From the NCBI RefSeq assembly GCF_007997155.1, contig NZ_VORT01000005.1, positions 124,001 to 188,000 on the forward strand: a DNA stretch of 64,000 bases, written 5' to 3'. Below are positions 35,577 to 56,313 of this stretch, piece by piece (the first letter of the stretch is position 1; each line of letters opens with the position of its first letter). The notes beneath the pieces were generated by a model, which saw only the letters and a list, made by a program, of their open reading frames with translations, made no database searches and was not told the DNA's origin. Source of the stretch: Aequorivita antarctica (GTDB lineage: Bacteria > Bacteroidota > Bacteroidia > Flavobacteriales > Flavobacteriaceae). The position numbers were made by a program, and so were the translations under genes.

Positions 35577-35586
35577 GCTGAAAAAT

Positions 35587-37665: not shown

Positions 37666-37736
37666 TACCTGATTACAGGTAGCTTATATTGCCTATTAAA
37701 AGGTATATGAATATTCTCTTAATTCAGATAAGTTTG
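37666..37736 (+). promoter_or_regulatory. Promoter/operator A of the secreted-protein regulon
   Basis: First palindrome TACCTGATTACAGGTA (37666-37681); second TGCCTATTAAAAGGTA (37690-37705), 24 bp centre to centre; -7 box TAAGTTTG (37729-37736), whose first base lies 28 nt after the start of the second AGGTA. Transcription would begin about 7 nt before the ATG at 37749. The AGGTA half sits where a -33 element is expected, as for an activator-dependent promoter. Confidence 0.8.
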
Positions 37737-37748
37737 AAAAAAAAACTA

Positions 37749-39317
37749 ATGAAAAAAGTTTACTTATTATATATTACCGTTTTTATCTTCAATTTAGGGT
37801 TTTCCCAAGAAGAAGTTTGGTCTAAGCTTTTCTCGGAACGCTTGGATTTTTCTCAAGCCGTTCCTAAAAATGTAGTTTTCACAAATGATTTAAAAATAAT
37901 CTACCCCGTTGTGGAAGACGGAAATTTATTAAGAATATATAAGCTTAATGAGAACGGGGACATTGTTAGAATTCTGGATACTGAGGAAAGTGTAAGTTCC
38001 ATTTCGGAAATAGTTAAAATATCTGAAACAGAATTTTCTTTGATTTTTAATGTGGAACCACTTGCTCTTACTCCTATTTATAAAGTTATACATTTTAATG
38101 AATTATTACAGATAACTTCTGAGACAATACTTAATCTGCCTATTATCTCAAATTTTGTCAATCTCATTCGATTTTTTAATCTAGAAAATCAGCAATTTGT
38201 AACTTTTAATGATAATGGCACTTATTATTTGATGCACTTAAATGGTAATAGTGAATTAGATATTATCTATACTAGTACAAACAATGTTTTTGTTGACCAT
38301 ATTTCGATACTTCCTACAGGTAATTTATTGATTGATTTTTCAACAGGTCAAGCTCATATTTTAAAGTGTATAAATACTGTGAATGGGAATTTAATTTGGG
38401 AGAAAAACTATGGGGACCCTAGTGAGATTAACTTGGATTATATTAAGACTTTTGATAGTGAGGGAAATATTTACATGTTCAGATTAATAAGGAATTTTAT
38501 AAATGGTGAAATATTTGACACAATAGAATTGCTAAAAATAAATGGAAATGATGGTAGCGTCACATTAAATAGTATTGAAAATCCACCAAACGATTGTGTT
38601 TTGAAATTTGAAGATTTAGAGTTTAATAAAGTTACACAGGAGGTGTACTTTAGTTACAGTAATTGTAGTGACCCAGGAGGTATCATTCTAAAAAGTTTTT
38701 CCAAAAACTTGGAACCTCTTCATACTATTAATGTGGATGCCGCACCAGATGGCTTTTTTGCTTCGGTTGCAAAGTCCTCCCAAATAATATTTAGGGATAA
38801 CGGTAAAGTTGTTTTTATTTATAGGAGCTATAAGAATGTTGAAGAATTTGATAATATCTATTTTTTATCCTTAACCAGCAATCTTCTTCCTTTATATACG
38901 GGAGAGTTGAACATACCTCCAAAAAATGGGACAGAGTTATTTGCGGATGCTGAATTATTTGGAGAAGCAAAAGCAGTTATAATAGGAGATGTGCCTCATA
39001 AAGACCCGAATGTTTCTTGGGAAGTAGTACAGTTTTTTATTTCAATGATTGATCTCGATGTTGTTTTGAATATAGAAGATGTTATCTCCAATAATGTAGC
39101 TCTATTTCCTAATCCATCTAAGGATAAATTGAACATTATATCTTCAGAAACTTTTGAAAGCTTTCAGGTATTCGACGTATCTGGTAAAATGATTAATTGT
39201 CCTCAAAACCTATTTCAAAAAAATATTGATATTTCTAATTTAAGTAATGGAATATATTTTCTGAGGTTAAAAACCAGTTCATTAAATACAATCCATAAAC
39301 AATTTATTAAATTTTGA
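37749..39317 (+). CDS. Secreted protein with T9SS sorting domain
   Basis: From the ATG at 37749 the protein has 522 residues with a signal peptide (MKKVYLLYITVFIFNLGFSQ). The main body is rich in beta strands (for example YFLSLTSNLLPLY) and resembles a beta-propeller or WD-like secreted protein, without catalytic motifs. The last ~75 residues are a type A T9SS sorting domain (LFPNPSKDKLNII, VFDVSGKMI, LSNGIYFLRLKT). It resembles the T9SS protein at 54571-56166 in general plan. First gene of a three-gene unit. Confidence 0.85.
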   Translation: MKKVYLLYITVFIFNLGFSQEEVWSKLFSERLDFSQAVPKNVVFTNDLKIIYPVVEDGNLLRIYKLNENGDIVRILDTEESVSSISEIVKISETEFSLIFNVEPLALTPIYKVIHFNELLQITSETILNLPIISNFVNLIRFFNLENQQFVTFNDNGTYYLMHLNGNSELDIIYTSTNNVFVDHISILPTGNLLIDFSTGQAHILKCINTVNGNLIWEKNYGDPSEINLDYIKTFDSEGNIYMFRLIRNFINGEIFDTIELLKINGNDGSVTLNSIENPPNDCVLKFEDLEFNKVTQEVYFSYSNCSDPGGIILKSFSKNLEPLHTINVDAAPDGFFASVAKSSQIIFRDNGKVVFIYRSYKNVEEFDNIYFLSLTSNLLPLYTGELNIPPKNGTELFADAELFGEAKAVIIGDVPHKDPNVSWEVVQFFISMIDLDVVLNIEDVISNNVALFPNPSKDKLNIISSETFESFQVFDVSGKMINCPQNLFQKNIDISNLSNGIYFLRLKTSSLNTIHKQFIKF

Positions 39318-39326
39318 ATTTATAAA

Positions 39327-41630
39327 ATGAATAAGTATTACTTTTTTATATTTCTTTTTTTTTGTGTAAAAAGTTTTGCTCAAATAGATCCGATTGGATC
39401 TACTGATTTTGGAAGGATCGTGGATATTACATATGATCTTTCTATTGAGAATACCGTTTATGCAGCTACTATTGGAAATCATATAGTTCGCTCTACTGAT
39501 AATGGAGCCACTTGGAATTTGTTTTATTCGCATCCTGATAGGGACGTCTTTATACAAAATCTAAAATTCTTTGGGAATGATAAAATTAGCTTTACAGTTG
39601 ATACCGGTTATGGGAATTGGAATAAAATATTTGTACTCGAAATATCAAGTGCTGAAATTTTTACTGAATACAATATTCCAATACCAAGTGGTGCTGATGA
39701 AAGCGAAATAACTTCATATGATTTTTATATGAATGATCCTCAGTTTATTGTTGTGCAACAAATTTATGGGATTGGAGGTGGAATATTTGGAAAAGTTTAT
39801 TACACAAACACTGGTGGGAATAGTTGGGAGGATATTTATCAAACGGAAAATTTTGATGCAATTTTCCCCAATGGAGTTGCGATTTCACCCGGGAATCCGA
39901 GTAAGATTTTTATCGCACGTCAGGGTGGTCTAGATCCTAATGATTATGGTGGTTTATTAATATCAAATAACGGAGGGACATCTTGGGAAGAGAAACTTTC
40001 TGGAATAGATTTTAATCAAATAGTTTTTAGACCTGACAACCCAGAAGAGATATTTTTAGGTTCTGCTTATGGTTCACAGATTCAAAATTTGTATCGCTCA
40101 ATGGACAATGGAGACAGTTGGTTGAATATAGATAATGATTGGGCTTCGGAAGTACCCAATGGCATTCTTAAAATACAATTTGACCCTACTAATTTTGATT
40201 CTATTTTGGTATTAGGTGTAAATGAAATAGTTAGAACATTCACGAATTTTCAAAATTACGAGGTCCTTCATTTTCAGAATGAAATTGGAAATTTTGACAA
40301 TTATTATTTCGGGACTAATGCATCAATTAACCCTTTTAATAACAATGAGATATTTATAACAAATAATGATTATCCACTTTTTACTCATGATGGAGGGGAA
40401 ACTTTATTACAAGTAAAAAACCCATTTTTTTTCTCAATAGGAAACGTAGGCTATTTCGAAAGTGAATTGGCGAAAAATTTATATTATAATGTCCAAAATG
40501 GATACATACATAAAAATATAAATACCAATATTGATACACCTTTTTTTATAGTACCCTTACAAGCTTTTCCGAATTTTACAAGCACTTATTTTTTTGATAA
40601 GAATGTATCAGGAAGAGTGTATGCGTTTTCAAGTTCCTTTAATGGATCTGGTATGGGAATAATGGAAAATCATGGAAATATATTGTCTTCATTTCCTCTT
40701 TCCTTTCAATTTTTACATGATATAAAATCCAACCCAGGTAACAATTCTATAATTTTAGCTTCCTTTTCCAATGATTTTGCAATAAGTAATTTGGTTCGGA
40801 TTGATATAACGGACCCAAATAACGTGACACAGGAACTTGTTAACCTTCCAACACAAGGCTTACTCTCAACTATTTTAATAGACTCCTTGAGTACAAATAA
40901 AATTTCTATTGCGTTAGAAGCTCGAATATATAGAACTGTGGACAATGGTTTTAGTTGGCAGCTGAGATCACAAGGATTGGAGAGTTTAGTTGAGGGACAA
41001 GACATGATTTATGAAATAAAGCAAAATCCACTAAATTCAGATCAATTGACAATTGCAACATCGAAAGGTGTCTTCACATCATTGGATGATGCCAATAGCT
41101 GGATTCCATTGTCAAATTTTCACGTACAAAAAGTATGGAGCTCCCCAATAAATAGCAATCATATCGTAGCTATGGATTTTGACAATCAACTAACGTTAAC
41201 AGTTAATTATTCTAGTGACGGTGGCCAATTTTGGAATGAAGTGTCTTATGAAAATTTGAAATATATAACTTCTACTGGTGCTGAAATAGCATTTACAGAA
41301 AATCAAGCTGAAATTTATCTTGGAACCTATGATATGGGATTGATTAAATACAAAGTTGATTTAGAAACTTTGTCTATTCCTGAAATTGGAGGTTTACAAG
41401 AAGAGGTAATTGTTTTTCCAAATCCCACCCCCGACATTATTCATATATTTTCCAAAAACGTACAAGTTCAGGTGATTACCTTGTATTCAATGGATGGAAA
41501 GAAAATTATGGATAGCAAAGGGGGTTATCGGTTTGAGATGAATTTATCAAATATAGCGTCGGGCCTCTACACACTAAAAATAGTATTAAAATCAGGAAAT
41601 ATCATAAACAAAAAAATTTTTAAAAAATAA
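39327..41630 (+). CDS. Secreted sortilin-like (BNR/VPS10) beta-propeller protein with T9SS sorting domain
   Basis: A 767-residue protein with a signal peptide (MNKYYFFIFLFFCVKSFAQ). Several Asp-box/BNR repeats of the S-x-D-x-G-x-T-W type are visible: STDNGATWNL, SNNGGTSWEEKL, SMDNGDSWLN, TVDNGFSWQL, SSDGGQFWNE. This is the sortilin/VPS10-like propeller found in many T9SS cargo proteins. The C-terminal domain has VFPNPTPDIIHIF, YSMDGKKIMD and IASGLYTLKIV. It starts 9 bp after the preceding gene and ends 2 bp before the next. No glycosidase catalytic residues can be named. Confidence 0.88.
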   Translation: MNKYYFFIFLFFCVKSFAQIDPIGSTDFGRIVDITYDLSIENTVYAATIGNHIVRSTDNGATWNLFYSHPDRDVFIQNLKFFGNDKISFTVDTGYGNWNKIFVLEISSAEIFTEYNIPIPSGADESEITSYDFYMNDPQFIVVQQIYGIGGGIFGKVYYTNTGGNSWEDIYQTENFDAIFPNGVAISPGNPSKIFIARQGGLDPNDYGGLLISNNGGTSWEEKLSGIDFNQIVFRPDNPEEIFLGSAYGSQIQNLYRSMDNGDSWLNIDNDWASEVPNGILKIQFDPTNFDSILVLGVNEIVRTFTNFQNYEVLHFQNEIGNFDNYYFGTNASINPFNNNEIFITNNDYPLFTHDGGETLLQVKNPFFFSIGNVGYFESELAKNLYYNVQNGYIHKNINTNIDTPFFIVPLQAFPNFTSTYFFDKNVSGRVYAFSSSFNGSGMGIMENHGNILSSFPLSFQFLHDIKSNPGNNSIILASFSNDFAISNLVRIDITDPNNVTQELVNLPTQGLLSTILIDSLSTNKISIALEARIYRTVDNGFSWQLRSQGLESLVEGQDMIYEIKQNPLNSDQLTIATSKGVFTSLDDANSWIPLSNFHVQKVWSSPINSNHIVAMDFDNQLTLTVNYSSDGGQFWNEVSYENLKYITSTGAEIAFTENQAEIYLGTYDMGLIKYKVDLETLSIPEIGGLQEEVIVFPNPTPDIIHIFSKNVQVQVITLYSMDGKKIMDSKGGYRFEMNLSNIASGLYTLKIVLKSGNIINKKIFKK

Positions 41631-41632
41631 AT

Positions 41633-42682
41633 ATGAAAACAATAATATTTTTAAATATCATTTTACTGTCTATTGTAATGAATGGACAAACTTCTATTTC
41701 GAGGGATAATTATTATGTGGAAGGGGATGTAGTGTTATTACACAATAAGTTTGACATATCACTTGAAAATTTTACTTCAGGTGATAGTGGAGAGAACATT
41801 ATATGGGATTACTCGGATATGGATTTTAATCATTCTTCAGTTATCGTTGATACCTTGCAATTTGTTAACCCAGTTGGAACACCTTTTTATCCAACATTTT
41901 TGAGGGCAGACTATAGTGCTGCTAATTTATGCTATATTAGAAAGACCGATGAATTTGATAGTGGCAATAACAATTACAATTATATATATATTGATTCCGA
42001 TAAATTAGAATTTATTGGAAGCTGGGCAGATAACCCAAGTAATGAGCGTTGGGAGGATCATTATGTTGACCCTGTTAAAGAACTTGATTTTCCATTTACC
42101 TATCAGGATACTTATGTAGATACTTTCGATCGCTTTTACTCCGATCAGTCTTCAGGTATTGAACACACCGTAACAGGAACCGTTGAGGTTACTGCTGATG
42201 GTTTTGGCACATTAGTAACACCGGATGGAGAAACATTGAATGATGTAGTTAGAATACATCGAGTGGAAAATGGGGTAGACACGAATTCAATTGGCCAATC
42301 AAACCCTTATTCAAAAAATAGTTTCTATTGGTATAGCTCAACGGTGAAAGGTGCAATCTTATCATTTGAAATGGCATCCAATGATCCGAACAGAATTGAA
42401 ACTGCTAATTATGAAAAGCTATTTTTACTGGGCACGCCAGAATTTATCGATAATTCTGTAGTACTATTCCCCAATCCAACATCTTCAAAGATCAATTTTT
42501 ATACTAGGGATTTAGATATTAGTGAAGTAAAAATATATAATGCAACAGGGGTACAAGAGATGAAAGTTGATATTGATGAAAGCGGTTCCATAAATATAGA
42601 ATCTTTAAAACCGGGAGTATATCTATTAAAAATAAGAAATATGGGAGGCAAATTTTTTATAAAAAAAATTATAAAAAATTAA
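41633..42682 (+). CDS. Secreted protein with T9SS sorting domain
   Basis: A 349-residue protein with a signal peptide (MKTIIFLNIILLSIVMNGQ). The central ~250 residues are beta-rich and unlike any family I recognise. The type A T9SS sorting domain is clear: LFPNPTSSKINFYTRDL, IYNATGVQEMKV, LKPGVYLLKI. It begins 2 bp after its neighbour's stop, so translational coupling is likely. Last gene of the regulon A unit. Confidence 0.82.
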   Translation: MKTIIFLNIILLSIVMNGQTSISRDNYYVEGDVVLLHNKFDISLENFTSGDSGENIIWDYSDMDFNHSSVIVDTLQFVNPVGTPFYPTFLRADYSAANLCYIRKTDEFDSGNNNYNYIYIDSDKLEFIGSWADNPSNERWEDHYVDPVKELDFPFTYQDTYVDTFDRFYSDQSSGIEHTVTGTVEVTADGFGTLVTPDGETLNDVVRIHRVENGVDTNSIGQSNPYSKNSFYWYSSTVKGAILSFEMASNDPNRIETANYEKLFLLGTPEFIDNSVVLFPNPTSSKINFYTRDLDISEVKIYNATGVQEMKVDIDESGSINIESLKPGVYLLKIRNMGGKFFIKKIIKN

Positions 42683-43309
42683 ATTTTAAATAGTCCTAAT
42701 TAATTATTTGGGACCATTGCAATTTTTAAAAAACACAAAAAAGACAAACGCTTTAAATACATTTCCATTTATTATTAGCAATTATCTAATTTCTACAGAG
42801 AGAAATGATACTAACATCATTTCTTAAATTTAAATATTGTGATTATTAAAACTTTAAGAGTCATCCTTAAAAAAAATATTTTTTTCTGTTTGATTATAGC
42901 GATAAAACCACCTGTTTTTTTATAATCATTCATCAGGTTAGTCTTTTATAACTATTTTTTAGATGTCTTTATTTTATTTCGAAAATGATATTTCATTTGG
43001 TATTAAGCGATGTTGAATTGATGAGGAGTTAAACTATGGTGGTGGTCGCTCTGAGGGGGGCTGATTGCCACCACCTCTTCATTTTATAAGACCTAAATAG
43101 GGTTTTTTGAAAAAAAAGGTTCTCCAGTAGTTAAGGTTTAAATTTAATTTTTTTCATTGTTTAATTTAGATATCCTTGGCTGGATTCATAGGTTTTTAAG
43201 AATTTTCTGGTAGTAAATAGGACTTTTAAAAATCAGATGTAATTTTTTTTGACGCACAAAATGAAAAATATAATAAAGTGATTCTTGTTCAATTTTTTAA
43301 AAGTGATTA
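42683..43309. other. AT-rich intergenic stretch, no gene seen
   Basis: Both strands are interrupted by many stops and no lipobox, signal peptide or known family was found. The only distinct element is the GC-rich hairpin at 43038-43075. Confidence 0.7.
43038..43075. other. GC-rich hairpin in AT-rich spacer
   Basis: The 8-bp stem GGTGGTGG / CCACCACC encloses a 22-nt loop containing GAGGGGGG. The base composition is strikingly different from the surroundings. It has no T-run, so it is not a typical terminator; a small RNA, a structured mRNA end or a protein-binding site are possible. Confidence 0.4.
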
Positions 43310-43380
43310 TACCTATTTGCAGGTATTAAATTAAGGCTATCATCAGGTATTTCGTATAACATTATGAATTTTTAATTTTG
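43310..43380 (+). promoter_or_regulatory. Promoter/operator B of the secreted-protein regulon
   Basis: First palindrome TACCTATTTGCAGGTA (43310-43325), second AGGCTATCATCAGGTA (43334-43349), 24 bp apart; -7 box TAATTTTG (43373-43380), again 28 nt from the second AGGTA. It faces the broken lipoprotein gene and, beyond the hairpin at 43686, the DUF4476 gene. Confidence 0.78.
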
Positions 43381-43400
43381 TGCTTTAGGAAAAATAAATA

Positions 43401-43543
43401 TTGAAAAAGAGATTCTTAATGATAACAATAATTTTGGTTATATCTTCCTGTAAAAACCCAAGTGAAACAATTGAAGCGCAAAAAAAAGTGATAGGAAAAT
43501 TGAAGATCTAAAGGATAGATTACGACCTTTCATTTATTATTAA
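43401..43543 (+). pseudogene. Broken small lipoprotein gene
   Basis: A TTG (43401) or ATG (43419) start opens a frame with a perfect short lipoprotein signal, MITIILVISSC, then KNPSETIEAQKKVIGKLKI and a stop at 43511. Shifting one base at about 43497 continues a natural-looking charged helix, KIEDLKDRLRPFIYY, to a stop at 43543. Both halves make sense as one frame-shifted lipoprotein. It lies directly downstream of promoter B. Alternatively the 30-residue form is the finished product. Confidence 0.5.
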
Positions 43544-43650
43544 TGGAGGCTTTTATTTTGACTAAATAGAAAAAGAGCCTATCGTAATAATAAAATCTTA
43601 AAATCTACATAAATTCATAATTAATAGTTTAAATGTATATTAAATAATTG

Positions 43651-43715
43651 GGAGTTTGGTTAGTTGGTAGTTTTTAAGTAGGAAGAACCCCTTGTTAATT
43701 AACGAGGGGTTTAAC
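43651..43715 (+). repeat. Leader repeat copy 1 (with hairpin)
   Basis: This block is repeated, diverged, at 45363-45422: GGAGTTTgGTTAGT..., TTTTTAAG-AGGAAG-ACCCCTTG and AGGGGTTTAAC are shared. Inside is the 26-bp near-perfect palindrome at 43686-43711 (AACCCCTT... / ...AGGGGTT), with only one wobble pair. Confidence 0.7.
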
Positions 43716-43813
43716 TGTTAGGGTAGCTTAAAAAATTATTAGGGCTAATTGATTACTTAAATAAATATCGAAACAAAATGAATTCTTTAAAGCAAAAGCT
43801 GAAATTTATAAGC

Positions 43814-44722
43814 ATGAAAAATTATCTTAAAACCATATTAGTTTTTTTTATAACATCCATATCATATTCACAGTATAACTCAGAAGGCTGTTTAACTATT
43901 TTCTCTGAGGAAGGTGATAAATTCTTTTTAACCCTTAATGGAGAGCTGATGAATGATATTCCGCAGACTAATATTCGTGTTGAAGATTTGGATCAACCAT
44001 TTTATCAAGTTAGAATTGAATTTGAAAATGAAAATTTGATTGAAATAAATAAAGATAATATTAATGTGATTGATGTCGATGATAATTATATTGATGTGAC
44101 ATACAGGATAAGAAGAGATAAGAATAATAGCAATAAGATGAAATTTAATTATTTTTCTGAATCGCCTAAATCAGAAGTTTATATTCCAAAAGAAAATGTT
44201 CATGTAATACATTTTGATGATATAATTATCAAAAAATCAACAATTGAGACTACAACAATAACTACAGTTACTGATAATATTGGAGTAGGAGCAAACATAA
44301 GTGTAGACGGCTTTAATATGAATGTATCAATATATGATCGTCAACCAGTGGTTATTTCCCAAACTACAATCACAAACAATACACATGGTTTTGATGACTT
44401 TGGATCTTATCGAGATTCTTGTGATCAAAAATATGAGATGAAATCATCAGATTTCAATGCGGCCGTTTCTTCAGTAAAAAATCAAAATTTTGAAGAAACC
44501 AAATTGACCACTGCAAAACAGATTAGTTCAGCCAATTGTTTGAGTGTTAACCAAATTATTGAAATTGCGAAAGTATTTAATTTTGAGGATTCAAAATTAT
44601 CTTTTGCAAAATTTGCATATGCCAATTGTATTGACAAAAAAAAATATTTTTTGGTAAATGATATTTTTTCCTTCAGTGTTAATATAGAAGAATTATCCAA
44701 TTATATTCAAGGAAAAAAATAG
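43814..44722 (+). CDS. DUF4476 domain-containing exported protein
   Basis: From the ATG at 43814 the protein has 302 residues with a signal peptide (MKNYLKTILVFFITSISYSQ). The first ~130 residues are beta-rich and include TLNGELMND, a pattern common to DUF4476 proteins, in which short reports on a ligand-independent display function exist only as predictions. The C-terminal ~90 residues are the DUF4476 helical repeat: FEETKLTTAKQISSANCLS, VNQIIEIAKVFNFEDSKLSF and AKFAYANCIDKKKYFLVND. Function unknown. There is no TAnnTTTG box directly upstream, so it may depend on promoter B. An ATG at 43778 would add 12 residues before the signal peptide. Confidence 0.85.
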   Translation: MKNYLKTILVFFITSISYSQYNSEGCLTIFSEEGDKFFLTLNGELMNDIPQTNIRVEDLDQPFYQVRIEFENENLIEINKDNINVIDVDDNYIDVTYRIRRDKNNSNKMKFNYFSESPKSEVYIPKENVHVIHFDDIIIKKSTIETTTITTVTDNIGVGANISVDGFNMNVSIYDRQPVVISQTTITNNTHGFDDFGSYRDSCDQKYEMKSSDFNAAVSSVKNQNFEETKLTTAKQISSANCLSVNQIIEIAKVFNFEDSKLSFAKFAYANCIDKKKYFLVNDIFSFSVNIEELSNYIQGKK

Positions 44723-45058
44723 TTGGAAACCCAGAAATATAAAGGTGGGTATTAATATTTAATTTGAATATTTTAATAACATACCTTGATTAATTAAAAA
44801 GGTTCATAAACCAAAAGAGATGACTATTAAAAGTCAAACCGAGAAGGGAATGGGTCTGTTATTTTATTTCTTTCGATAATATCTTGATATAGGCAGAATT
44901 TTTATTGTGGATTACTTATTCTGAAAAATTTGGTTAAGGAGCTGGAAAATTTGTGATGGGACTAATATGATATCATTAGATTTTTACATTAATTACGATG
45001 ATTTTTTAAAAAAAAATCATTTCCAAGATAATTTAAAATTTGTTTCTCAAACAATTTA
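44723..45058. other. AT-rich intergenic stretch, no gene seen
   Basis: About 336 bp between the DUF4476 gene and promoter C with frequent stops in all frames. No hairpin with a T-run and no recognisable motif was found. The last ~35 bp before the operator (ATAATTTAAAATTTGT) resemble the sequence flanking promoter E. Confidence 0.6.
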
Positions 45059-45129
45059 TACCTCATTACAGGTAAATGAAAAACGCTAATTATAGGTATT
45101 TTTTTATTCTGAATACAGTTTTAAATTTG
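45059..45129 (+). promoter_or_regulatory. Promoter/operator C of the secreted-protein regulon
   Basis: First palindrome TACCTCATTACAGGTA (45059-45074), second ACGCTAATTATAGGTA (45083-45098), 24 bp apart; -7 box TAAATTTG (45122-45129), 28 nt from the second AGGTA. The ATG of the 58-residue frame is 11 nt beyond the box, as in promoter A. Confidence 0.8.
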
Positions 45130-45139
45130 CTTTAAATAA

Positions 45140-45316
45140 ATGAAACTTTCTTTACGACCAAGTCGATTTTGGAAAAATTCCATAATAATTAGGTCGAATG
45201 CGAATAAAAATTTATACGATAATATGAAAGTAATTTTAGAAAAAGAAAAATTTAATAATAAATATTACTATAGGATTCTTTTAAGCCAAAAAAGGGAGAA
45301 TATAGTGATATCTTAA
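45140..45316 (+). CDS. Possible 58-residue protein downstream of promoter C
   Basis: An ATG placed 11 nt after a -7 box opens a 58-residue frame (MKLSLRPSRFWKNSIIIRSN ... KRENIVIS). It is very basic and has neither signal peptide nor known motif. The exact spacing to the promoter argues for a real leader gene or small protein; the lack of family resemblance argues against it. It may also be a relic like the lipoprotein frame behind promoter B. Confidence 0.35.
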   Translation: MKLSLRPSRFWKNSIIIRSNANKNLYDNMKVILEKEKFNNKYYYRILLSQKRENIVIS

Positions 45317-45362
45317 AAACCTACGTAATTTCATGTTTTTGAGTTAAGATAGTGAATAAATT

Positions 45363-45422
45363 GGAGTTTAGTTAGTAGTTTTTAAGAAGGAAGGACCCCT
45401 TGCATTAAGCGAGGGGTTTAAC
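45363..45422 (+). repeat. Leader repeat copy 2 (with hairpin)
   Basis: Second copy of the 43651-43715 block. Its hairpin (45395-45417) has stem ACCCCTTGC / GCGAGGGGT with one wobble pair and a 5-nt loop. Stem bases that differ from copy 1 still pair, which suggests that the structure is kept. It is about 107 bp upstream of the protease gene start. Confidence 0.7.
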
Positions 45423-47709: not shown

Positions 47710-47715
47710 AAATAT

Positions 47716-48424: not shown

Positions 48425-49012
48425 CTATAAACTAAAATAACGACTTCTAACTCTACTTAAGGTTTCGGGAGTAATGTTTAAATAGGAAGCAATAAGTTTT
48501 TGAGAAAATTTTTGAATTATTTGAGGTTTATTATTTAAAATATGTTCATACTTTTCATCAGGAGAAAAATTATTGTCGTAAAATTCAATACGGAAAAGAG
48601 TTTCATCCATTAGCCTTCCCATTTGAAGAAATGAGGGAGATATTGCAATAAGTTTATGTATTGAATCTATTGATAACTCGTAAATAGAAGTGTCTTCATA
48701 TGCTTGAATATAATAAGCTGAGGGTTCTTGTAAAATAAAGCTTTTATAATTTAACACACAGTCTTTTGCAAGGTTTAAATCTATAATCGATTTATCTTGT
48801 TCGGAATTAATTTTGTATTGATATAGTGCTCCTTCAATTATAAAATAAACTGAGGAACATATTTCGCCTTTAGTGAGTAAATAATCTTCTCTTTTTAATT
48901 TTCTATAAAGAAGTTCTTTTTCAAAAAGAACCAGCTCTAATTGAGAATAACGACCTGTCTTATTTAAAACTTCAGCTATGGGACTATACATGGGATGAGT
49001 ATTATTTTCCAA
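48425..49012 (-). CDS. Crp/Fnr-family transcriptional regulator
   Basis: A 195-residue protein: an N-terminal cyclic-nucleotide-binding-type beta barrel (about 28-115, YLLTKGEICSSVYFIIEGAL) and a short C-terminal helix-turn-helix (about 165-195, KLIASYLNITPETLSRVRSR). The Arg-Ser pair used by CRP to bind cAMP is absent, so the ligand, if any, differs. Proteins of this shape are common single-component regulators in Bacteroidota. It is likely to control the adjacent membrane-protein and methyltransferase genes (inference). Confidence 0.88.
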   Translation of the reverse strand: MENNTHPMYSPIAEVLNKTGRYSQLELVLFEKELLYRKLKREDYLLTKGEICSSVYFIIEGALYQYKINSEQDKSIIDLNLAKDCVLNYKSFILQEPSAYYIQAYEDTSIYELSIDSIHKLIAISPSFLQMGRLMDETLFRIEFYDNNFSPDEKYEHILNNKPQIIQKFSQKLIASYLNITPETLSRVRSRYFSL

Positions 49013-49093
49013 TTAATTTATAATATAAAAAGAATGATATATAGCAATAAATATCGCTATAGCATTTTTTTCTTTTAGTTTTTAATTTAAAAA

Positions 49094-50122
49094 TTAGTAG
49101 GCAATATCTTCGATACACTTATTTATAGTTATTATATCAGTGCCAAACATTAATTTCCCAATATCGTTTGTATTTTGTTTATAAAATAATAAAAACATCG
49201 CCAAACCTTCATCCTGTGACCACCACTTTTTATTGCGCCTAAGACCTTCAATAGCAGTTTCATTATCTAGATTTGCTCCTTTTGGATTTGTTAGCCAGAT
49301 AAAAGCCACATATTTGCCAATGCCCTCCATAGTGATAAAAAAATCATCATATGTCTTAAATAGTTCTTTTGTGCCAACAAAATATTGAGTTTGTCTCGCG
49401 TTGTACATGCTTAAGGCCTTCTTTGTCAGTTTTTTTGAGTCAACAGGATCAATAGCCCAAAAGGCATCGTAAAATAGATTTATTTCAGCTTTCATAGATT
49501 GGTTGTATTCTAGATTTCCATCCATCTGTTTCTGAACTAAATTATCATCTAATTCAATTTCGGGGTTAATTTCATTTTCAAATTCTTGAAGTTTTTTACC
49601 GAAATTTTTATTTTGTTGAGAATGTGCAAATTCATGAAGAAAAATACTGGTGTATAAATTTTCATCACCCAATTCATCACTTTGAATTTGATTTTGTATC
49701 CAAAATGAAGGGGTTCCCATTACAAAAAAGGTTTGATTGGATCCTTTTTTTCCTGACGCTGCAAATGACATAATTTCAATGGGTGTAATCTGTCCATTTG
49801 GCAATGTCAGCTTATCATAATGTTTGTATTTTACCCATTTTTCTTTTTTTCCAAAAAACTGTGGACCTTTTATCTCTAAGCTATTCTCAATCTCTTCCTT
49901 CGTATTTGTATAGACAAATATTTCGTCATAGAATATCATTAAAGGGGGTTCAAATGAAGAAATTTTTAAAATATCATTTGCAACCAGTTCCCAAGCATCA
50001 AACCATTTTTGAACCCCGATTAATTCAACCTCAATATTAGCATTGCCCTGTTGCTTTTTTTCACTTTTTTTTTGCTCGCATGATATCAAAAGAGCAGTTA
50101 TAAATACTAATATTATTTTCAT
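49094..50122 (-). CDS. Lipoprotein with zincin-like HEFAH motif
   Basis: A 342-residue protein with a lipoprotein signal (MKIILVFITALLISC). A HExxH zinc motif is present in SIFLHEFAHSQQN (about residue 186), with acidic residues downstream that could supply a third ligand. No known peptidase family is recognised. The remaining sequence is charged, globular and cytoplasm-free by the lipobox. A membrane-anchored metallopeptidase or a peptidase-like protein is possible. Confidence 0.75.
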   Translation of the reverse strand: MKIILVFITALLISCEQKKSEKKQQGNANIEVELIGVQKWFDAWELVANDILKISSFEPPLMIFYDEIFVYTNTKEEIENSLEIKGPQFFGKKEKWVKYKHYDKLTLPNGQITPIEIMSFAASGKKGSNQTFFVMGTPSFWIQNQIQSDELGDENLYTSIFLHEFAHSQQNKNFGKKLQEFENEINPEIELDDNLVQKQMDGNLEYNQSMKAEINLFYDAFWAIDPVDSKKLTKKALSMYNARQTQYFVGTKELFKTYDDFFITMEGIGKYVAFIWLTNPKGANLDNETAIEGLRRNKKWWSQDEGLAMFLLFYKQNTNDIGKLMFGTDIITINKCIEDIAY

Positions 50123-50156
50123 TTTTTTATATATAATACCCCAACGTATATTTATC

Positions 50157-50354
50157 TTAAATCTGCATATTACTCTTTAATAAACTCAAGGTCAATTCCA
50201 AACCACCTATACTTCCTTCTAGGATTTGCTGAAAGTCCCTGGAGTACATTAATTTAAACGCACCGCAAAAAATATAATTTACGGTAAGAAAGATCCACAG
50301 ATACGCGAGAATTTTATTATTATATTGATTATTTTGTAATAATGGTTCTTCCAT
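50157..50354 (-). CDS. Small membrane protein
   Basis: A 65-residue frame with a hydrophobic N-terminal half (ILAYLWIFLTVNYIFCGAFK) and a polar C-terminal half. The context (34 bp from the HEFAH lipoprotein gene and 33 bp from the next lipoprotein gene, same strand) supports a real gene, but no homologue is recognised. Confidence 0.45.
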   Translation of the reverse strand: MEEPLLQNNQYNNKILAYLWIFLTVNYIFCGAFKLMYSRDFQQILEGSIGGLELTLSLLKSNMQI

Positions 50355-50387
50355 TGCTTAAAAGGTGTTTTATCTTTAAGGTCTATA

Positions 50388-50801
50388 CTATAGTAAGGTC
50401 GATATACCCAAATCAATAAATCCAATACTTGTAGAGTTTACACTGCCATTTTTCTTAACAACTCCTCCAACTTTAATAGTTCCGGTCATACTTTCATTTG
50501 CTTGGCCAAAACCACCAACTGTTGACCCTGCTTGTAGAACTAATGCTACTGGATCTGCTGCTGTAATAACAACCTCTTTAGACCACGGGAGGGAAACGTT
50601 ATCAACAACTTGATTTACACCATCCCCATTAATATATACAATGGTTAAAGTTCCTGAATAAGTTCCGGACAATTCATATTTCACTGTTTTGGAATTACCA
50701 CCAGAAGAGCCAGAATCATCATCTTTGTTACAGGATATCATAATGGTCATTAGTAATAAAATTAAAACGGTTGGCAAAAATTTCATTTTTTTTCTTTTCA
50801 T
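50388..50801 (-). CDS. Small lipoprotein, MmpS-like
   Basis: A 137-residue lipoprotein (lipobox IMISC after MKFLPTVLILLLMT) followed by an acidic/serine linker and a single beta-sandwich with SGTYSGTLTIVYING and VSLPWSKEVVITAAD. The layout resembles MmpS-type accessory proteins and other small outer-membrane lipoproteins of Bacteroidota. The gene is monocistronic or leads the preceding small gene. No operator of the regulon type lies upstream. Confidence 0.75.
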   Translation of the reverse strand: MKRKKMKFLPTVLILLLMTIMISCNKDDDSGSSGGNSKTVKYELSGTYSGTLTIVYINGDGVNQVVDNVSLPWSKEVVITAADPVALVLQAGSTVGGFGQANESMTGTIKVGGVVKKNGSVNSTSIGFIDLGISTLL

Positions 50802-50940
50802 ATTTATATAAGATTGATAAGCCTACTTTTTTTTACGGTTGTTCGGCGTGTCCGTCTTTTTCGACGCTTTTTTCAAGACATCTTAAGTCAAGATTTCTTT
50901 GGTCATTTTTTCTTATAACTCCGGAACTGCCATTTTATGG

Positions 50941-51268
50941 TTAATTTTTTAAAGTTAGTATTGGCATTAATTCACTTCTTATATTCCAAAAATAGAGAGC
51001 AATTCCAATAGCGACGCATGGTAATTCTATACCGAATTCATCAATAAAATAAGCCGTGTTTCCCGTGTCTGTAGTAAGAGGTATAAAAATTCATTGTAAT
51101 TAATACAACAATTCCAGGACACCACATTAAACCTGCCGCGTATAAGCCACTTCCTCCACCGAGTTTTCCAGAATAAATAATCAAAAAATAGAATAGTGAA
51201 CTTAAAGCCAAATTAATAGATAGAAATAGGAGGGTTGGTTTTAGCTTGTGTATGGAGAAATGTGTCAT
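50941..51268 (-). pseudogene. CPBP intramembrane protease gene with internal deletion
   Basis: The 75-residue frame at 51268-51041 (MTHFSIHKLKPTLLFLSINL, then YAAGLMWCPGIVVLITM) is the N-terminus of a CPBP/CAAX-like intramembrane protease. After a frame shift near 51075 a second frame gives TTDTGNTAYFIDEFGIELPC and LYFWNIRSEL to a stop at 50941, which is a typical CPBP C-terminus with the last helix. The whole middle, including the catalytic EExxxR and FxxxH motifs, is missing. This is a deletion remnant of a once complete gene. Confidence 0.65.
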
Positions 51269-51342
51269 ATCTTAGTTTCCCTGTTAGACTTATTCATATT
51301 CTACCTTTAAAACTTCAGGAATATTTTATGCAAATCGACTTA

Positions 51343-51843
51343 TCAATTAACACTAAAGGCATACATAAAATCATTTGAACCAAAGAAAAACTCTCCAGTA
51401 TCAATGTTTTTAACAATTAAATAATAATAGCCTTCTTTTATTTTTTCAACATCATAGCTTATTTTTTCAAAAGATGTTGAAGTACTAGTACCTTTTGATT
51501 TGGTAGTGATAAAAACTCTTTTATCATTTTTTATTTCAAATTGTACCAAATCCAGAATAGATGTTGGATCTACACCCGGATTAACTTTCACTATAAATTT
51601 TAGTGAGCTAGTTTTTGGTATTCTAACTTTAGATGTTACTCCATTTAAAAAGAAACCTCCTTCTGCTCCAAAAAGCCCTTTTGACTTCGTTATCGTATTA
51701 TATTGAGACTTTTCCAGATCGACCAATTTATTGCTTTGTGTATCGAAGAAAGTTGGTTTTTCAATAAACTCAGGCAATTCTTGTTGGGCTTGGGAGTTAA
51801 AAGAGGATAAAATGAATATTAAAAAAATAAAAATTGTTTTCAT
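51343..51843 (-). CDS. Secreted protein of unknown function
   Basis: A 166-residue protein with a signal peptide (MKTIFIFLIFILSSFNSQAQ) and a beta-rich body (VRIPKTSSLKFIVKVNPG, FEIKNDKRVFITTKSKG). No T9SS sorting domain, lipobox or known family. It is the gene downstream of promoter D, with a ~65-nt leader, so it belongs to the same regulon as the T9SS proteins. Confidence 0.7.
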   Translation of the reverse strand: MKTIFIFLIFILSSFNSQAQQELPEFIEKPTFFDTQSNKLVDLEKSQYNTITKSKGLFGAEGGFFLNGVTSKVRIPKTSSLKFIVKVNPGVDPTSILDLVQFEIKNDKRVFITTKSKGTSTSTSFEKISYDVEKIKEGYYYLIVKNIDTGEFFFGSNDFMYAFSVN

Positions 51844-51909
51844 GATTATATAATAATTTAAGGTCGGGGGTAGGAATTTATTACTTTGATAAAGTGTAAA
51901 TGCTAGTAG

Positions 51910-51980
51910 TAAAACTATTGAGAAGGGAGGTATTTTTCAATACTCAATTAGAAGTAAAATAAAATACCTGCATTCAGGTA
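51910..51980 (-). promoter_or_regulatory. Promoter/operator D of the secreted-protein regulon
   Basis: Plus-strand palindrome TACCTGCATTCAGGTA (51965-51980); second site TACTCAATTAGAAGTA (51941-51956), weaker but keeping TAC and GTA ends, 24 bp apart. On the minus strand the -7 box TAGTTTTA (51917-51910) is 28 nt from the second site's GAGTA and matches TAnnTTTG in seven of eight positions. Confidence 0.7.
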
Positions 51981-52141
51981 AATTTTTTTAAAACTCTGTT
52001 TTTATAGAATTAATTAGGTATTTGTCCAGTGATTAGTAGAGTATTGCCATAATGTTGAGAACTTTTCAGCTAAAGGCGCTTTTAGTAATCTAGAGGTTTA
52101 TTGTTTAGATGAGCTTCTGTATTTGCTTAGGCATTGTTAAT

Positions 52142-52672
52142 TTATTGATCCCATTCACTTTTTAATAGACCATATACTATATCATCTACCCACTTTCCAT
52201 CAATTAATAAACTCTCTTTAAAATGGGCTTCTTTTCTAAAGTTCAGCCTTTCTAAAAGTCGAATTGAATCAATATTCCTAGGATCAACTGAGCCTTTTAT
52301 TCTATGTTTGTCTAAAGAGTTAAATAAATAATCAATGGTAATTTTCATAGCCATCGTGGCATAACCTTTTCCTTGGTGTTTTTTACTTAAAGTACACCCA
52401 AGCTCACATTGAAAGCCGTCATCAGCAATAAAATGGATTCCTATATCTCCAATAATTTCATTAGAGGATTTTTCTATAATAACTAATTGAAACCAAGATT
52501 CAGGTTGATTAATCTCTAACGGATTTTTCGCAATGAAGTTATCTACTTCTTTTAATTCTTTTGGCACAAACCCTTGGTATTTGTTTGTTTCAATGTCTGA
52601 CCTGTAACTGAAAACTTGATGATTGTCTTCAATTGTGATAGGCCTTAATAAAAGTGTTTCTGTTTCTATCAT
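52142..52672 (-). CDS. GNAT N-acetyltransferase (RimJ/RimL type)
   Basis: A 176-residue acetyltransferase. The N-terminal TETLLLRPITIEDNHQVFSY is the RimJ/RimL-like start; the acetyl-CoA-binding P-loop region is LSKKHQGKGYATMAMK (QGKGYA). Transfers acetyl groups from acetyl-CoA to an amino group; the acceptor is unknown. It lies alone between regulon promoter D and an empty stretch. Confidence 0.9.
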   Translation of the reverse strand: MIETETLLLRPITIEDNHQVFSYRSDIETNKYQGFVPKELKEVDNFIAKNPLEINQPESWFQLVIIEKSSNEIIGDIGIHFIADDGFQCELGCTLSKKHQGKGYATMAMKITIDYLFNSLDKHRIKGSVDPRNIDSIRLLERLNFRKEAHFKESLLIDGKWVDDIVYGLLKSEWDQ

Positions 52673-53131
52673 TTTTTATATATAAGTGATGTACTTACAG
52701 TCTCGGAATATTCGTAATTTAAATTCGATTTTAAACAAATTAGCAACATTTTTTTAAAATTCAAATTGATTATAGCTGACATAATACTTAACTCGTGCCA
52801 AAGCTTGCTAAAATTATCAAATATTTTTCCTTGGATTATCAGCGAAACATATTTTAAGACCAAAGTTGAATAGGTTTTAGCTTTTGCTTTAAATTTTTAT
52901 TTATCTCAATTTTTGATTTGCTAAATAACAATTATAAGATGTTTATTGATTACTTGAGATTTTGATGAACATATTAATATACAAAGAATCATAATCAGTT
53001 CTATCTTTGCCATTCTATACCTTTTTTTAAACATCATTTGTTTTTTAAACGTTTAGGTTTTTTTTAAATTTAATAAAGTATTTTTTTTCATAGTTTGAAC
53101 TTGATTATACAAAGACATTCCTTGAAATAGA
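52673..53131. other. Intergenic stretch without a supported gene
   Basis: An open frame of 64 residues (52669-52863, minus) starts at TTG and has no domain or signal peptide; it is treated as chance. Long T/A homopolymers and no clear hairpin were seen. Confidence 0.6.
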
Positions 53132-53965
53132 TTATTGAATTACTGTAACATACATACTTATTGTCGCACCTCTTGTAATATTCCATTCGCCTTGGCTAGC
53201 AGTCCTTTTAATGGATTTTCCAAAAAGTTTTCCTCTATAGTTAAAAGGTTCTTCTTGACCTCCACTTTGAGGAATATATTCGATGGAAACAAAAAAATCA
53301 GTATCGAATTTTAAGTCGTATTGGGTTAGATCTAACTGATTCCAGCCTTCAGAGATGGGCTGATCAAATAGAATGCCTGAACGGTTGATTTTTTGAAAGG
53401 GAAGTCCATCTTTAACATTGTAAAAATTAACCCTAAAAATTGCCGTTTCCTGTTTAATATTAAATAGATTAATATTTACATTTAAAACTTGTGAGGCTTT
53501 TTTTATTTTTATTTTTTTTACAAATTCTTGGATGTCATTATTGCTATCGTTTTTTGACTTTACATATCCAACCACCCAATTGCTGTAACTCTGAGTGCCT
53601 AATTTTAATTCTTTTTTTTCTGAATTGTTTATGATGACTTCATCAAGTTGGAATGGATTTAACTTTAGTAAAATTGTTTCAGGACTTTTTTTTATCATCT
53701 CCTCTATGGATAATGTCTTATTAAAGTATCCCACATATGAAACAGTGATACTGTCTTTTTGGTTAGAAGGGGGGATATTTAAAAAAAAAAGACCGTTTTT
53801 ATCTGAAACTGTTCCAATATCTTTATTTTGAATCCCGATGTTTACGAACTCTAGAACTACACCATCGGCAGCTTTCACCTGCCCAGATAATTCAATATTT
53901 TGACCAATAGAGCTTAATGTGCCTATATATATTAATGCAATTGAGAGCAATATTTTAAAGGGCAT
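53132..53965 (-). CDS. Exported carboxypeptidase-regulatory-like domain protein
   Basis: A 277-residue protein with a signal peptide (MPFKILLSIALIYIGTLSSI). The first ~75 residues are a CarboxypepD_reg-like (peptidase-associated beta-sandwich) domain: ELSGQVKAADGVVLEFVNIG, GTVSDKNGLFFLNIP, DSITVSYVGY. This domain is common at the N-terminus of TonB-dependent receptors, but there is no plug or barrel. The rest (LDEVIINN..., FRVNFYNVKDG) is beta-rich and unknown. Third gene of the operon behind promoter E; 34 bp from its neighbour. Confidence 0.85.
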   Translation of the reverse strand: MPFKILLSIALIYIGTLSSIGQNIELSGQVKAADGVVLEFVNIGIQNKDIGTVSDKNGLFFLNIPPSNQKDSITVSYVGYFNKTLSIEEMIKKSPETILLKLNPFQLDEVIINNSEKKELKLGTQSYSNWVVGYVKSKNDSNNDIQEFVKKIKIKKASQVLNVNINLFNIKQETAIFRVNFYNVKDGLPFQKINRSGILFDQPISEGWNQLDLTQYDLKFDTDFFVSIEYIPQSGGQEEPFNYRGKLFGKSIKRTASQGEWNITRGATISMYVTVIQ

Positions 53966-53999
53966 GTATTTCTAAATTAAAGTTTATGGTTCAGTGTAT

Positions 54000-54521
54000 T
54001 TAGTCTTGAATAGGCACAAAAAAACGACCTTCACTAACTATTATTACATCTTGAGTATCGAGATTTTTTATTTTTCCCGAATAGGTTCCTTTAACAGCCG
54101 AATTACTAATTTCGCTTATCGTAATAGTAAATTCTTCAGGTTCATAGTAGAAACTGTTATAATAGGTGTTAGTAGAAGTGTTGTAAAATTTTGCTGACAA
54201 TTCATAATTAGGATCTCCGTTGGGCTCCGGTTGGAAATAGGTACCTATTGTTATATTATTTTCCAGAAACTCAATATCTAGTTCAAATCCCTCATTTAAT
54301 AACCCATCCTTCGTCCCACCTATAATTAGTTTAACTAGATTTTCATTATCTAATGCTGTCTGTGCCACTGCTGCATTGTTAAAGTTTTTTGCTGTACCAT
54401 TCATTTTCATTTCCAAATAATAGGTATCTGTTGATGATGGTCTGTCATCACTTTTGGAGCAACCTATAATCAACATTGAGGCTGCAAAAAGGAATATTCT
54501 GGTTATTTTTTGAAATTTCAT
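54000..54521 (-). CDS. Lipoprotein of unknown function
   Basis: A 173-residue protein with a lipobox (SMLIIGC) after a signal sequence (MKFQKITRIFLFAA). The body YYLEMKMNGTAKNFNNAAVA and FEEFTITISEISNSAVKGTYSG-like repeats match the pattern of DUF6252-like lipoproteins. A beta-sandwich is likely. Middle gene of the promoter E operon. Confidence 0.75.
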   Translation of the reverse strand: MKFQKITRIFLFAASMLIIGCSKSDDRPSSTDTYYLEMKMNGTAKNFNNAAVAQTALDNENLVKLIIGGTKDGLLNEGFELDIEFLENNITIGTYFQPEPNGDPNYELSAKFYNTSTNTYYNSFYYEPEEFTITISEISNSAVKGTYSGKIKNLDTQDVIIVSEGRFFVPIQD

Positions 54522-54570
54522 ATTATACTGATTTTCAATTTATAATTTTGAGGTTAAACAATTGATTGAC

Positions 54571-56166
54571 TTATTGTTTTATAAATTTTGAGATGTTCAA
54601 TTTGTTGTTATCAAATTTAATATTCAAAAAATATAAACCTTGATTTAATTGAGAAACGTCTATTTGGTTGTTTGAAATATTGAGGTTTCCAACATCCTTC
54701 CCTAGGACATCAAAAATTTTCACCTCCACAATTGATTGTTGAGAGACAATATTTAAAATATTTTGGGTTGGATTAGGATAAATCTCAACTGAAGTTTCTA
54801 AATCTTCAACTGATAGAATTGGATCAATGCAATACTTATTATCATAATCTGTAAGAATATCTAATACATTGAATTGTTTTGAGCTTACTGCCTGGGTAGT
54901 TGGGATAATTAAATTTGCAGGAAAAATATCTTTTAATAAGGAGGATTTTGTATCAGCAATTTCAAAATTGATTGTCTCTTCGCCACACCCCAATTCATCA
55001 ATAGTTCCTTTATGATAATAATTTAAATGATGACTAGTTCCGTTTTGAACAGCAACAAGGCGGCCTGATAAATAATAGGATCCAGTATTATTTAAGGCAA
55101 GGGTGGAGACAGAAAGATATGTGTCAATGGAATTGAAAGGAACTTTTTTAATTGCTTTAATATCTGAAACATTTCCTTGGCTATCTATTTCAGTAAGTGC
55201 AATATAGAGCTGGTTTGTATTTTGGTCGAAATAGGAACCGTTTATTGCTACAAAAAAGTTGTTGTTAAGATTGCTTGTCGCAACAATTTGCTCTACAAAA
55301 TTTAGAGAATCCGAGGAGGACGGTGTTTCTTTTGTAATGAAGCTTTTTACCCATAGTATTTCCCCCGTATTCTGGTCAATAGATAAAACAGAACTATCAC
55401 TTAATCCAATAATTAGATAACTATCCGCAGCTTCAGCAAGGGATGTCCCATAGATTGCATTTTGTGTGTCCCTGTAATAAGTATAGCTGCTTACAGGACT
55501 TAAATTTTGATCAAACGTTATAACAGGAGCGTTGTGATTATTATTTAAAAGAGATTCACCGGTAACAACAATATTTCCATTACTTAGAGCCAACCCTTTT
55601 CTTAAGAGAATATCGAAACCCAAATTTATTTTAACAGCTTCCAAAACCTCGCCATCTAGGCTAAATTTCACTATTCTATCTTGTAAGACGGCGTAAATTG
55701 CATTATTGGCATACAGAAGGTCGGATAAAAGTTGAATTTCTTCATTGAGAAATTTTGCCCAGATTACTTCCCCTTGGTCATTGATTTTGAGTAAATAATA
55801 TCCATCCCTATTTGGACCACCTAAATACACACCTATGGCATAAATGTAATTTTGACTATCCTGGATAATAGAATATAGGAAAAAGCCGTCAAGACTGACG
55901 GCATCTGTTGGAAGATATGCTTTATTCCATAACAGATTTCCATCAGTATCGATTTTGTTTACTGTGCCGAAAAAGTTTCGCTCTGGGAATAAGAACACAT
56001 TTCTATATACACCACAAGTAAAGCTATTGTTATTTTGATCTAGTATTAAATCATACAATTCCTGCTGGTCCTCACTATACCCGTATGCTTTTTGAAAGTT
56101 TTGAGCTTTCAATGTGTTGTTCAATACGACCAAACTTAAAAAAATAAAAAGAGCTACATTTTTCAT
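54571..56166 (-). CDS. Secreted protein with T9SS sorting domain
   Basis: A 531-residue protein with a signal peptide (MKNVALFIFLSLVVLNNTLK plus AQ). The body contains blades with a W/Y-rich spacing typical of a beta-propeller (VNKIDTDGNLLWNKAYLPTD, LKINDQGEVIWAKFL), consistent with a PQQ- or delta-60-like repeat protein. The last ~75 residues form a type A T9SS sorting domain (EIYPNPTQNILNI, VFDVLGKDVGN-type, LNQGLYFLNIKFD). It is the first gene of the promoter E operon. In plan it resembles the first gene behind promoter A (37749). Confidence 0.85.
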   Translation of the reverse strand: MKNVALFIFLSLVVLNNTLKAQNFQKAYGYSEDQQELYDLILDQNNNSFTCGVYRNVFLFPERNFFGTVNKIDTDGNLLWNKAYLPTDAVSLDGFFLYSIIQDSQNYIYAIGVYLGGPNRDGYYLLKINDQGEVIWAKFLNEEIQLLSDLLYANNAIYAVLQDRIVKFSLDGEVLEAVKINLGFDILLRKGLALSNGNIVVTGESLLNNNHNAPVITFDQNLSPVSSYTYYRDTQNAIYGTSLAEAADSYLIIGLSDSSVLSIDQNTGEILWVKSFITKETPSSSDSLNFVEQIVATSNLNNNFFVAINGSYFDQNTNQLYIALTEIDSQGNVSDIKAIKKVPFNSIDTYLSVSTLALNNTGSYYLSGRLVAVQNGTSHHLNYYHKGTIDELGCGEETINFEIADTKSSLLKDIFPANLIIPTTQAVSSKQFNVLDILTDYDNKYCIDPILSVEDLETSVEIYPNPTQNILNIVSQQSIVEVKIFDVLGKDVGNLNISNNQIDVSQLNQGLYFLNIKFDNNKLNISKFIKQ

Positions 56167-56242
56167 AAAATTTGTCTTTAAGGGTAATCTTTTCCGTAAA
56201 TTTTTTTAAAGATTAACAAAAAAAGTTTTTCCATATTCCTAT

Positions 56243-56313
56243 CGAAAATAATTTAAAATTTGTGGAATAATTATACCTTTAAGAAGGTGTAATTTTTTAC
56301 CTCTAAACAGGTA
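56243..56313 (-). promoter_or_regulatory. Promoter/operator E of the secreted-protein regulon
   Basis: Plus-strand palindrome TACCTCTAAACAGGTA (56298-56313); second palindrome TACCTTTAAGAAGGTG (56274-56289), both near-perfect, 24 bp apart. On the minus strand the -7 box TATTTTCG (56250-56243) is 28 nt from the second AGGTA and matches TAnnTTTG in seven of eight positions. The ATG of the T9SS gene is 77 nt beyond. Confidence 0.75.

Follow-up and report, generated by a model that had tools for sequence, protein, structure and literature searches.

Five promoters in a 64,000-nucleotide stretch of the Aequorivita antarctica genome (contig NZ_VORT01000005.1, positions 124,001 to 188,000; "the window", whose numbering is used unless another contig or locus is named) carry the same pair of palindromes upstream of their -7 boxes, and this raises the question which regulator reads this arrangement and which genes it governs. 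A first-pass annotation of the window had described the five as one regulon under a single factor binding both palindromes, and had named no candidate for it. The regulon is most likely run by the histidine kinase and the response regulator encoded at 34944-37590, and we consider it very probable that the blocks are the promoters of one regulon under this NarL-type two-component system. The sequence evidence consists of the spacing of the elements, a set of eight such blocks in the genome, the gene neighbourhood, the co-occurrence of blocks and regulator in other genomes and the covariation of operator core and recognition helix; it also supports one factor on both palindromes.

Re-checking of the window sequence bore out the five blocks, with their coordinates and their identical spacing. 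The palindrome TACCT-N6-AGGTA is perfect at the five distal positions given in Table 1 and has no other occurrence in the window. Each of the blocks A to E is 71 bp long; counted from the block start, a second AGGTA (GAGTA in D) begins at position 36 and the -7 box at position 64, which amounts to a plan of 16-8-16-23 bp up to this box. The -7 boxes also have the letters annotated before, those of A, B and C fitting TAnnTTTG and those of D and E being one base off each. The second palindrome is indeed the weaker one, as had been stated: in the eight genomic sites 2-6 of its 8 pairs are complementary vs 5-7 of 8 in the first, and its conservation lies mainly in the AGGTA half.

The 16-mer alone was found nine times in the genome (3.84 Mb), with eight in the reversed control and 4.2 expected from composition. 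Since this count hardly exceeds the control, the palindrome by itself proves little. Eight of the nine places are on a single 290-kb contig, for which 0.31 would be expected. The full pattern (21 positions: TACCT-N6-AGGTA, N19, AGGTA, N23, TANNTTTG) gave eight places in the genome at up to three mismatches, with none in the reversed control and 0.21 expected, and four of them have no mismatch (5.7e-6 expected from composition). The first-pass annotation had proposed a motif scan that would reveal whether the pattern occurs at random density, and its regulon came through that scan. The modest excess of the 16-mer is what would be expected if the arrangement were a chance product of A+T-rich DNA, but the counts for the full plan make this explanation extremely improbable. 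The annotated five promoters are real, but the total is eight, reaching about 107 kb beyond the interval that had been given for the regulon. The additional blocks S6, S7 and S8 constitute an independent replication of the spacing, because they were located by the 16-mer only and the second half-site and the -7 box then turned up at identical distances. The ninth 16-mer (contig C11) lies within an open reading frame (ORF) and lacks the rest of the plan.

With a weight matrix built from the eight own sites and three homologous ones, the eight blocks, which are thus part of the training set, score 48-58 and the next best site scores 17 (in about 109 kb of the own genome). A relaxed pattern with two mismatches returned the eight known blocks and six further places, which we take as chance, as the reversed control also returned six; as a control for shifted spacing, a version with N21 for N20, one base longer, found none. 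Because the matrix runner-up scores 17 and the relaxed pattern adds no more than its control, the predicted regulon comprises eight promoters. By the ORF lists all eight blocks are intergenic, provided that the start of A1 is taken as the ATG at 37749 instead of the TTG at 37689 that was assigned mechanically.

The identical spacing could also be explained if the blocks descended recently from a single promoter cassette that was mobile or had been duplicated. The leaders downstream of B and C do have a 136-nt element in common, with 75% identity, and the signal peptides of B1 and C1 are similar; moreover, the non-motif positions inside the blocks, in columns picked by hand, are slightly more alike than expected from composition (38.8% vs 33.3%). 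The flanks (60+60 nt) are on average 31.6% identical vs 31.8% expected from composition. Since they are at chance identity, the blocks are not recent copies. As the spacing furthermore recurs in other genera, next to regulators that are about 39-50% identical, we disfavour the duplication of one cassette and judge it very improbable.

Sigma-A promoters of the Bacteroidota possess a TTG element at -33. For Flavobacterium psychrophilum, the sigma-A box TAnnTTTG is placed at -12 to -5 (PMC9723704). With the -7 box of the blocks set to these positions, the distal palindrome extends from -75 to -60 (centre -67.5) and the proximal one from -51 to -36 (centre -43.5). The -7 box is exact in five of the eight blocks (A, B, C, S7, S8) and has one mismatch in D, E and S6. 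TTG at -35 to -33 is found in D and S7 only and is missing in the other six, so that the blocks have the -7 box of a sigma-A promoter and, as a group, not the -33 element. Within the 13 sites of the homologue scan described below, six have this TTG (L061, L169, L170, L054, L055, L057), and TTT stands at the same place in B, C and the remaining positive homologue loci. The earlier proposal that AGGTA replaces the TTG has to be corrected: the proximal palindrome ends just upstream and abuts -33, and TTG survives in D and S7.

This geometry also bears on the direction of control. NarL represses frdA (PMC4549865), and the family can therefore act in both ways; the regulator could likewise repress the blocks until a signal releases it. 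Such a role is unlikely here, since both sites (~-43.5 and ~-67.5) are upstream of -33 and off the core promoter, and the lack of TTG at -33 in six of eight blocks fits a dependence on an activator. For an activator, the sequences suggest that a dimer at the distal site serves as the anchor and that a proximal dimer is recruited, because in seven of the eight blocks the distal palindrome is the better one, and in A the two are equal.

The candidate pair adjoins block A in divergent orientation. The regulator shows the features of a NarL/FixJ response regulator, namely a receiver domain with aspartate (Response_reg, 2.4e-21; D57 in the usual phospho-acceptor position by inspection), a GerE domain (1.9e-17) and an adjacent kinase of the HisKA_3 type. 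The kinase, separated by 10 nt between the ORFs, was recognized by HisKA_3 (3.3e-13) and HATPase_c (8.9e-15); its H483 and the start of its transmembrane segment were placed by inspection, and its listed ORF extends to 37611 from a TTG. The closest solved structures to the regulator by sequence are VraR entries (7ve6, 2.3e-27), followed by NarL (1a04, 3.7e-21). With the regulator as query, 23 matches at E ≤0.001 were obtained in the own genome. The kinase-regulator operon may itself be autoregulated from the two sites of block A. Block A read towards the kinase (37600-37705, minus strand) has the best matrix score outside the blocks, 17.2, and three homologous loci match the plan in reverse at 3 mismatches in 19 positions.

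Across 397 genomes of the family, the pattern at no more than one mismatch occurs in three (the own genome, G192 and G381), and the same three hold the closest regulators (E 1e-132, 6e-65 and 8e-64; the next is 2e-51). In G192 and G381 the distance from the block to the regulator gene is about 2 kb, and the block is upstream of the kinase. Among 27 congeners, the regulator match with the lowest E-value (3.7e-36) has 37% identity, and the scan at up to two mismatches found one place (G015, two mismatches), which is taken as chance, with one in 99 genomes in the reversed control.

A regulator match was present in 57 genomes, and loci from 25 of them were examined. In 31 loci with a regulator homologue (442 kb), the plan at no more than 2 mismatches in 19 positions was found upstream of the kinase in 13, always pointing away from it and in the interval between the kinase and the next gene, where the reverse direction gave none. 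The 19-position pattern was set after variant sites had been viewed and is in part post hoc, the rest of the loci serving as control. Outside these intervals there was one match at this threshold (L058:15424), itself located upstream of a barrel gene. Relaxing the limit to 3 mismatches in 19 added four outside matches, blocks B and C among them, and four reverse-direction matches within the intervals; three of the latter represent the same palindromes read backwards. A fourteenth locus (L056) also has the plan, but with the gap between the palindromes longer by a single base. The positive loci span two families and include Flavobacterium frigidimaris, with no mismatch. On a tree of the regulators, which has long branches, the presence of the plan needs three changes, whereas shuffled labels need 10.6 on average and none of 500 shuffles was as low. 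The recurrence of the kinase-regulator pair across these loci follows from the construction of the search, and other neighbours were viewed by eye only. Of the 80 loci listed, L061, L062, L063 and L131 were scanned with the full pattern, L061 and L062 also being used in the plan scan and the tree.

When up to three mismatches to the TACCT pattern were allowed, a block beside the kinase was detected in G192, G381, G095 and F. frigidimaris; the block of G087 has four mismatches, and G076 has none by this pattern. Two other places with three mismatches (G087, F. frigidimaris) are offset by three control places. The TACYGG pattern occurs at one to three places in each of seven genomes out of seven, with none in the control. 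A second locus of G095 (L060) had no match at up to six mismatches in the full-pattern scan, the only scan applied to it. By eye, the first gene beside the kinase encodes a small lipoprotein-like product in most cases. Those of F. frigidimaris (39%, E 1.7e-19), G192, G048 and G095 (short stretch) are homologous to the small lipoprotein at 50388-50801, and in G421, G452 and G028 the first gene encodes an outer-membrane barrel. The own genome with its eight operators has the largest set among the genomes scanned.

The residue of the recognition helix that aligns with K188 of NarL, a DNA-contacting residue, tracks the palindrome core in the sequences compared. It is Q in four regulators (own, F. 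frigidimaris, G192, G381), all with TACCT..AGGTA operators, E in seven regulators with operators TACYGGAAAACCAGTA, and D in three with the other cores TACCTGAATTTAGGTA, TACCGGAATTTAGGTA and TACTTAAAAATCAGTA. This covariation has to be considered when asking whether some other regulator binds the palindromes and the two-component genes are merely among its targets. A cyclic-nucleotide-binding (Crp/FNR-like) protein is encoded among the blocks (48425-49012, minus strand), and an AraC-type protein (DUF6597/HTH_18) adjoins S8. In the former, Pfam detects no helix-turn-helix; the core follows the recognition helix of the NarL-type regulator, and pattern and closest regulator coincide in the three genomes mentioned above, having been found independently. 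Control by such another protein is therefore rather improbable.

Several observations weigh against a regulon of exported proteins read by this regulator through a rigid twin operator. The proximal palindrome is weak, the 24-bp offset between the palindromes does not correspond to an integral number of helical turns, and block D deviates in both the -7 box and the proximal half. The plan is absent from 17 of the 31 homologue loci, of which L062 and L171 fall among positive loci on the tree of the regulators. Phylogeny confounds the covariation, for which there are few independent lineages; moreover, since E is also present in several homologues that lack the plan, this residue alone does not imply it. 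In G460, an operator without mismatch precedes an ORF that looks like one for an epimerase and not for an exported protein, and in G249 an operator with three mismatches points into the 3' end of the regulator gene. Viewed by eye and left uncounted, L062 has two palindromes 4 bp apart, followed by TTG, 20 nt and GAACTTTG; nothing clear was seen in L171.

Under control by the two-component system, the TPR domain of the kinase, periplasmic by topology, would sense an envelope signal, and the HisKA_3 core would phosphorylate the REC-GerE regulator, as judged from the domains. A dimer of the regulator would bind the stronger distal 16-bp palindrome, a NarL-like 7-2-7 site centred at about -67.5, and a second dimer would fill the weaker proximal site, centred at about -43.5, whose AGGTA half abuts -33 of a housekeeping-type Bacteroidota promoter. 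By analogy with NarL, which activates from sites in the -40s, activation would proceed from the proximal site. In related genomes, a few operators would drive mostly a gene for a small lipoprotein or an outer-membrane barrel; in the own genome, operators in front of eight transcription units, with a cargo gene of the type IX secretion system (T9SS) as the first gene of four, would represent an enlarged regulon.

The earlier view of a regulon of exported proteins agrees with a crude, home-made signal-peptide rule: all eight first genes pass it vs 16 of 59 ORFs in the window, these 16 including five of the first genes; the rule missed A3 and E3. The claimed share of T9SS proteins is real but partial, since four of eight first genes encode such cargo. 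After S6 stands a TonB-receptor-like gene followed by one for a DUF4249 protein, after S7 a gene for FG-GAP T9SS cargo and after S8 one for T9SS cargo. A1, A2 and A3, all T9SS cargo genes, are grouped as one operon. Because the operons contain six of the 122 T9SS-tail matches in the genome, the regulon covers a small subset of the cargo.

A close known system for comparison is that of NarL of Escherichia coli, which is likewise a REC-GerE protein. Its 16-bp inverted repeat has TACC....GGTA ends, and it has an activating site in the -40s (PMC4549865). There, an engineered 7-2-7 site is given as TACCCCTAAAGGGGTA and the napF and yeaR sites at -40 to -49 and -38 to -47. In size and ends, the palindrome described here matches the NarL site, and this likeness stands beside the residue-operator covariation. 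In contrast to NarL, the sites here come in pairs, with a constant offset of 24 bp, on a promoter of the Bacteroidota type; the regulator has Q182 instead of K188, the kinase has a TPR sensor, and the predicted targets concern the envelope and exported proteins and not nitrate respiration. VraR, an envelope-stress response regulator, is the closest solved relative by sequence, but it is distant and differs in partner kinase, phylum and operators, so that we note a resemblance and claim no membership. PorXY-SigP is a two-component system tied to the T9SS in Bacteroidota and acts on genes of secretion components via an extracytoplasmic function (ECF) sigma factor, whereas the GerE-type regulator would act on cargo genes via a housekeeping-type -7 box; given this box and the GerE output, the system is not of the PorXY-SigP type. 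Acyl-homoserine-lactone receptors of the LuxR type have an autoinducer-binding domain and a 20-bp lux box; the present protein has a REC domain, Pfam reports no autoinducer-binding domain in it, and its site has 16 bp. The hybrid two-component systems (HTCS) of Bacteroides are another case of membrane sensors that control genes of surface proteins in Bacteroidota. They unite kinase and regulator in one chain (PMC11253607). Here, two separate ORFs with a GerE output were found, and the system is not a hybrid one.

REC-GerE regulators are numerous in these genomes, and a literature search of partial coverage turned up no paper that describes the operator of such a regulator with a TPR kinase as its partner in Flavobacteriaceae. 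This is of interest, since regulator, operators, promoter geometry and predicted regulon are combined here, together with a candidate specificity residue that is open to substitution. We lean slightly towards a wider reading, in which the rigid twin-operator code belongs to one branch of the Bacteroidota systems of TPR kinase and NarL-type regulator and predicts targets from sequence, and in which T9SS cargo genes were captured by repeated, independent gain of complete operators, giving cargo-level control of a subset of the secretome. If so, T9SS cargo genes would be controlled apart from the machinery, and a regulon would have grown through operator gain with invariant spacing.

Table 1. Operator blocks, the proposed regulatory pair and the genes downstream of the blocks (window numbering; S6 to S8 in positions of contig C54)
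Feature	Position	Strand	Description
NarL-type response regulator, proposed activator	34944..35576	-	REC-GerE, 210 aa; D57; recognition-helix Q182/T183/R186; from Pfam and NarL alignment
Putative partner histidine kinase	35587..37590	-	signal peptide, TPR sensor, one transmembrane segment, HisKA_3, HATPase_c; ATG start
Block A	37666..37736	+	distal palindrome 37666-37681; proximal half-site pair 37690-37705; -7 box TAAGTTTG 37729-37736
A1	37749..39317	+	T9SS cargo, first gene after block A; Por_Secre_tail; ATG picked by eye; predicted leader ~8 nt
A2	39327..41630	+	T9SS cargo with sortilin-like repeats; 9 nt after A1
A3	41633..42682	+	T9SS cargo; 2 nt after A2
Block B	43310..43380	+	distal palindrome 43310-43325; proximal half-site pair 43334-43349; -7 box TAATTTTG 43373-43380
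B1	43778..44722	+	DUF4476 protein, signal peptide; ~0.4 kb past block B
Block C	45059..45129	+	distal palindrome 45059-45074; proximal half-site pair 45083-45098; -7 box TAAATTTG 45122-45129
C1	45524..46897	+	aspartyl protease-PDZ protein, signal peptide; ~0.4 kb past block C
Small lipoprotein	50388..50801	-	PF05423; 541 nt beyond D1, separate transcription possible; homologous to the lipoprotein divergent from the kinase in related genomes
D1	51343..51843	-	166 aa, signal peptide; without Pfam match
Block D	51910..51980	-	distal palindrome 51980-51965; proximal pair 51956-51941 (GAGTA half); TTG; -7 box TAGTTTTA 51917-51910
E3	53132..53965	-	CarboxypepD_reg-like protein; 34 nt after E2
E2	54000..54521	-	173-aa lipoprotein-like protein; 49 nt after E1
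E1	54571..56166	-	T9SS cargo
Block E	56243..56313	-	distal palindrome 56313-56298; proximal half-site pair 56289-56274; -7 box TATTTTCG 56250-56243
Block S6	C54:196427-196497	-	full-pattern genome scan; outside the window, same contig
Block S7	C54:200207-200277	+	full-pattern genome scan; outside the window, same contig
Block S8	C54:287607-287677	-	full-pattern genome scan; outside the window, same contig

Some observations were made beside these results. In G452, an operator-like block with three mismatches (L208:1501-1571) lies between a gldK-like ORF and gldL (GldL_N), in a region of the T9SS/gliding motor. In G095, a homologue of the C1 protease (L054:10777-12102; 38% identity, E 5e-90) is encoded about 1.6 kb from the regulator gene, and no second full-pattern block is listed for this locus. 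An ORF at 3844-5172 (plus strand) shares, by eye, a near-identical stretch around IIFDSSLNFSPRMGIPIHGILGNEFF with the aspartyl protease C1; the weight-matrix scan shows no block upstream of it.

The element common to the leaders of B1 and C1 (43587-43720 and 45302-45427) was found in these two copies only in the genome, and the Rfam search gave a single match under the gathering score, nothing usable. Each copy is predicted to form two hairpins (fold z -1.9 and -3.6), the last of which, ACCCCTTG..CGAGGGGT, is terminator-like in C; the terminator scan found one terminator-like site, in leader C, where 0.9 were expected. The element may act as an attenuator or may mark where a short transcript ends.

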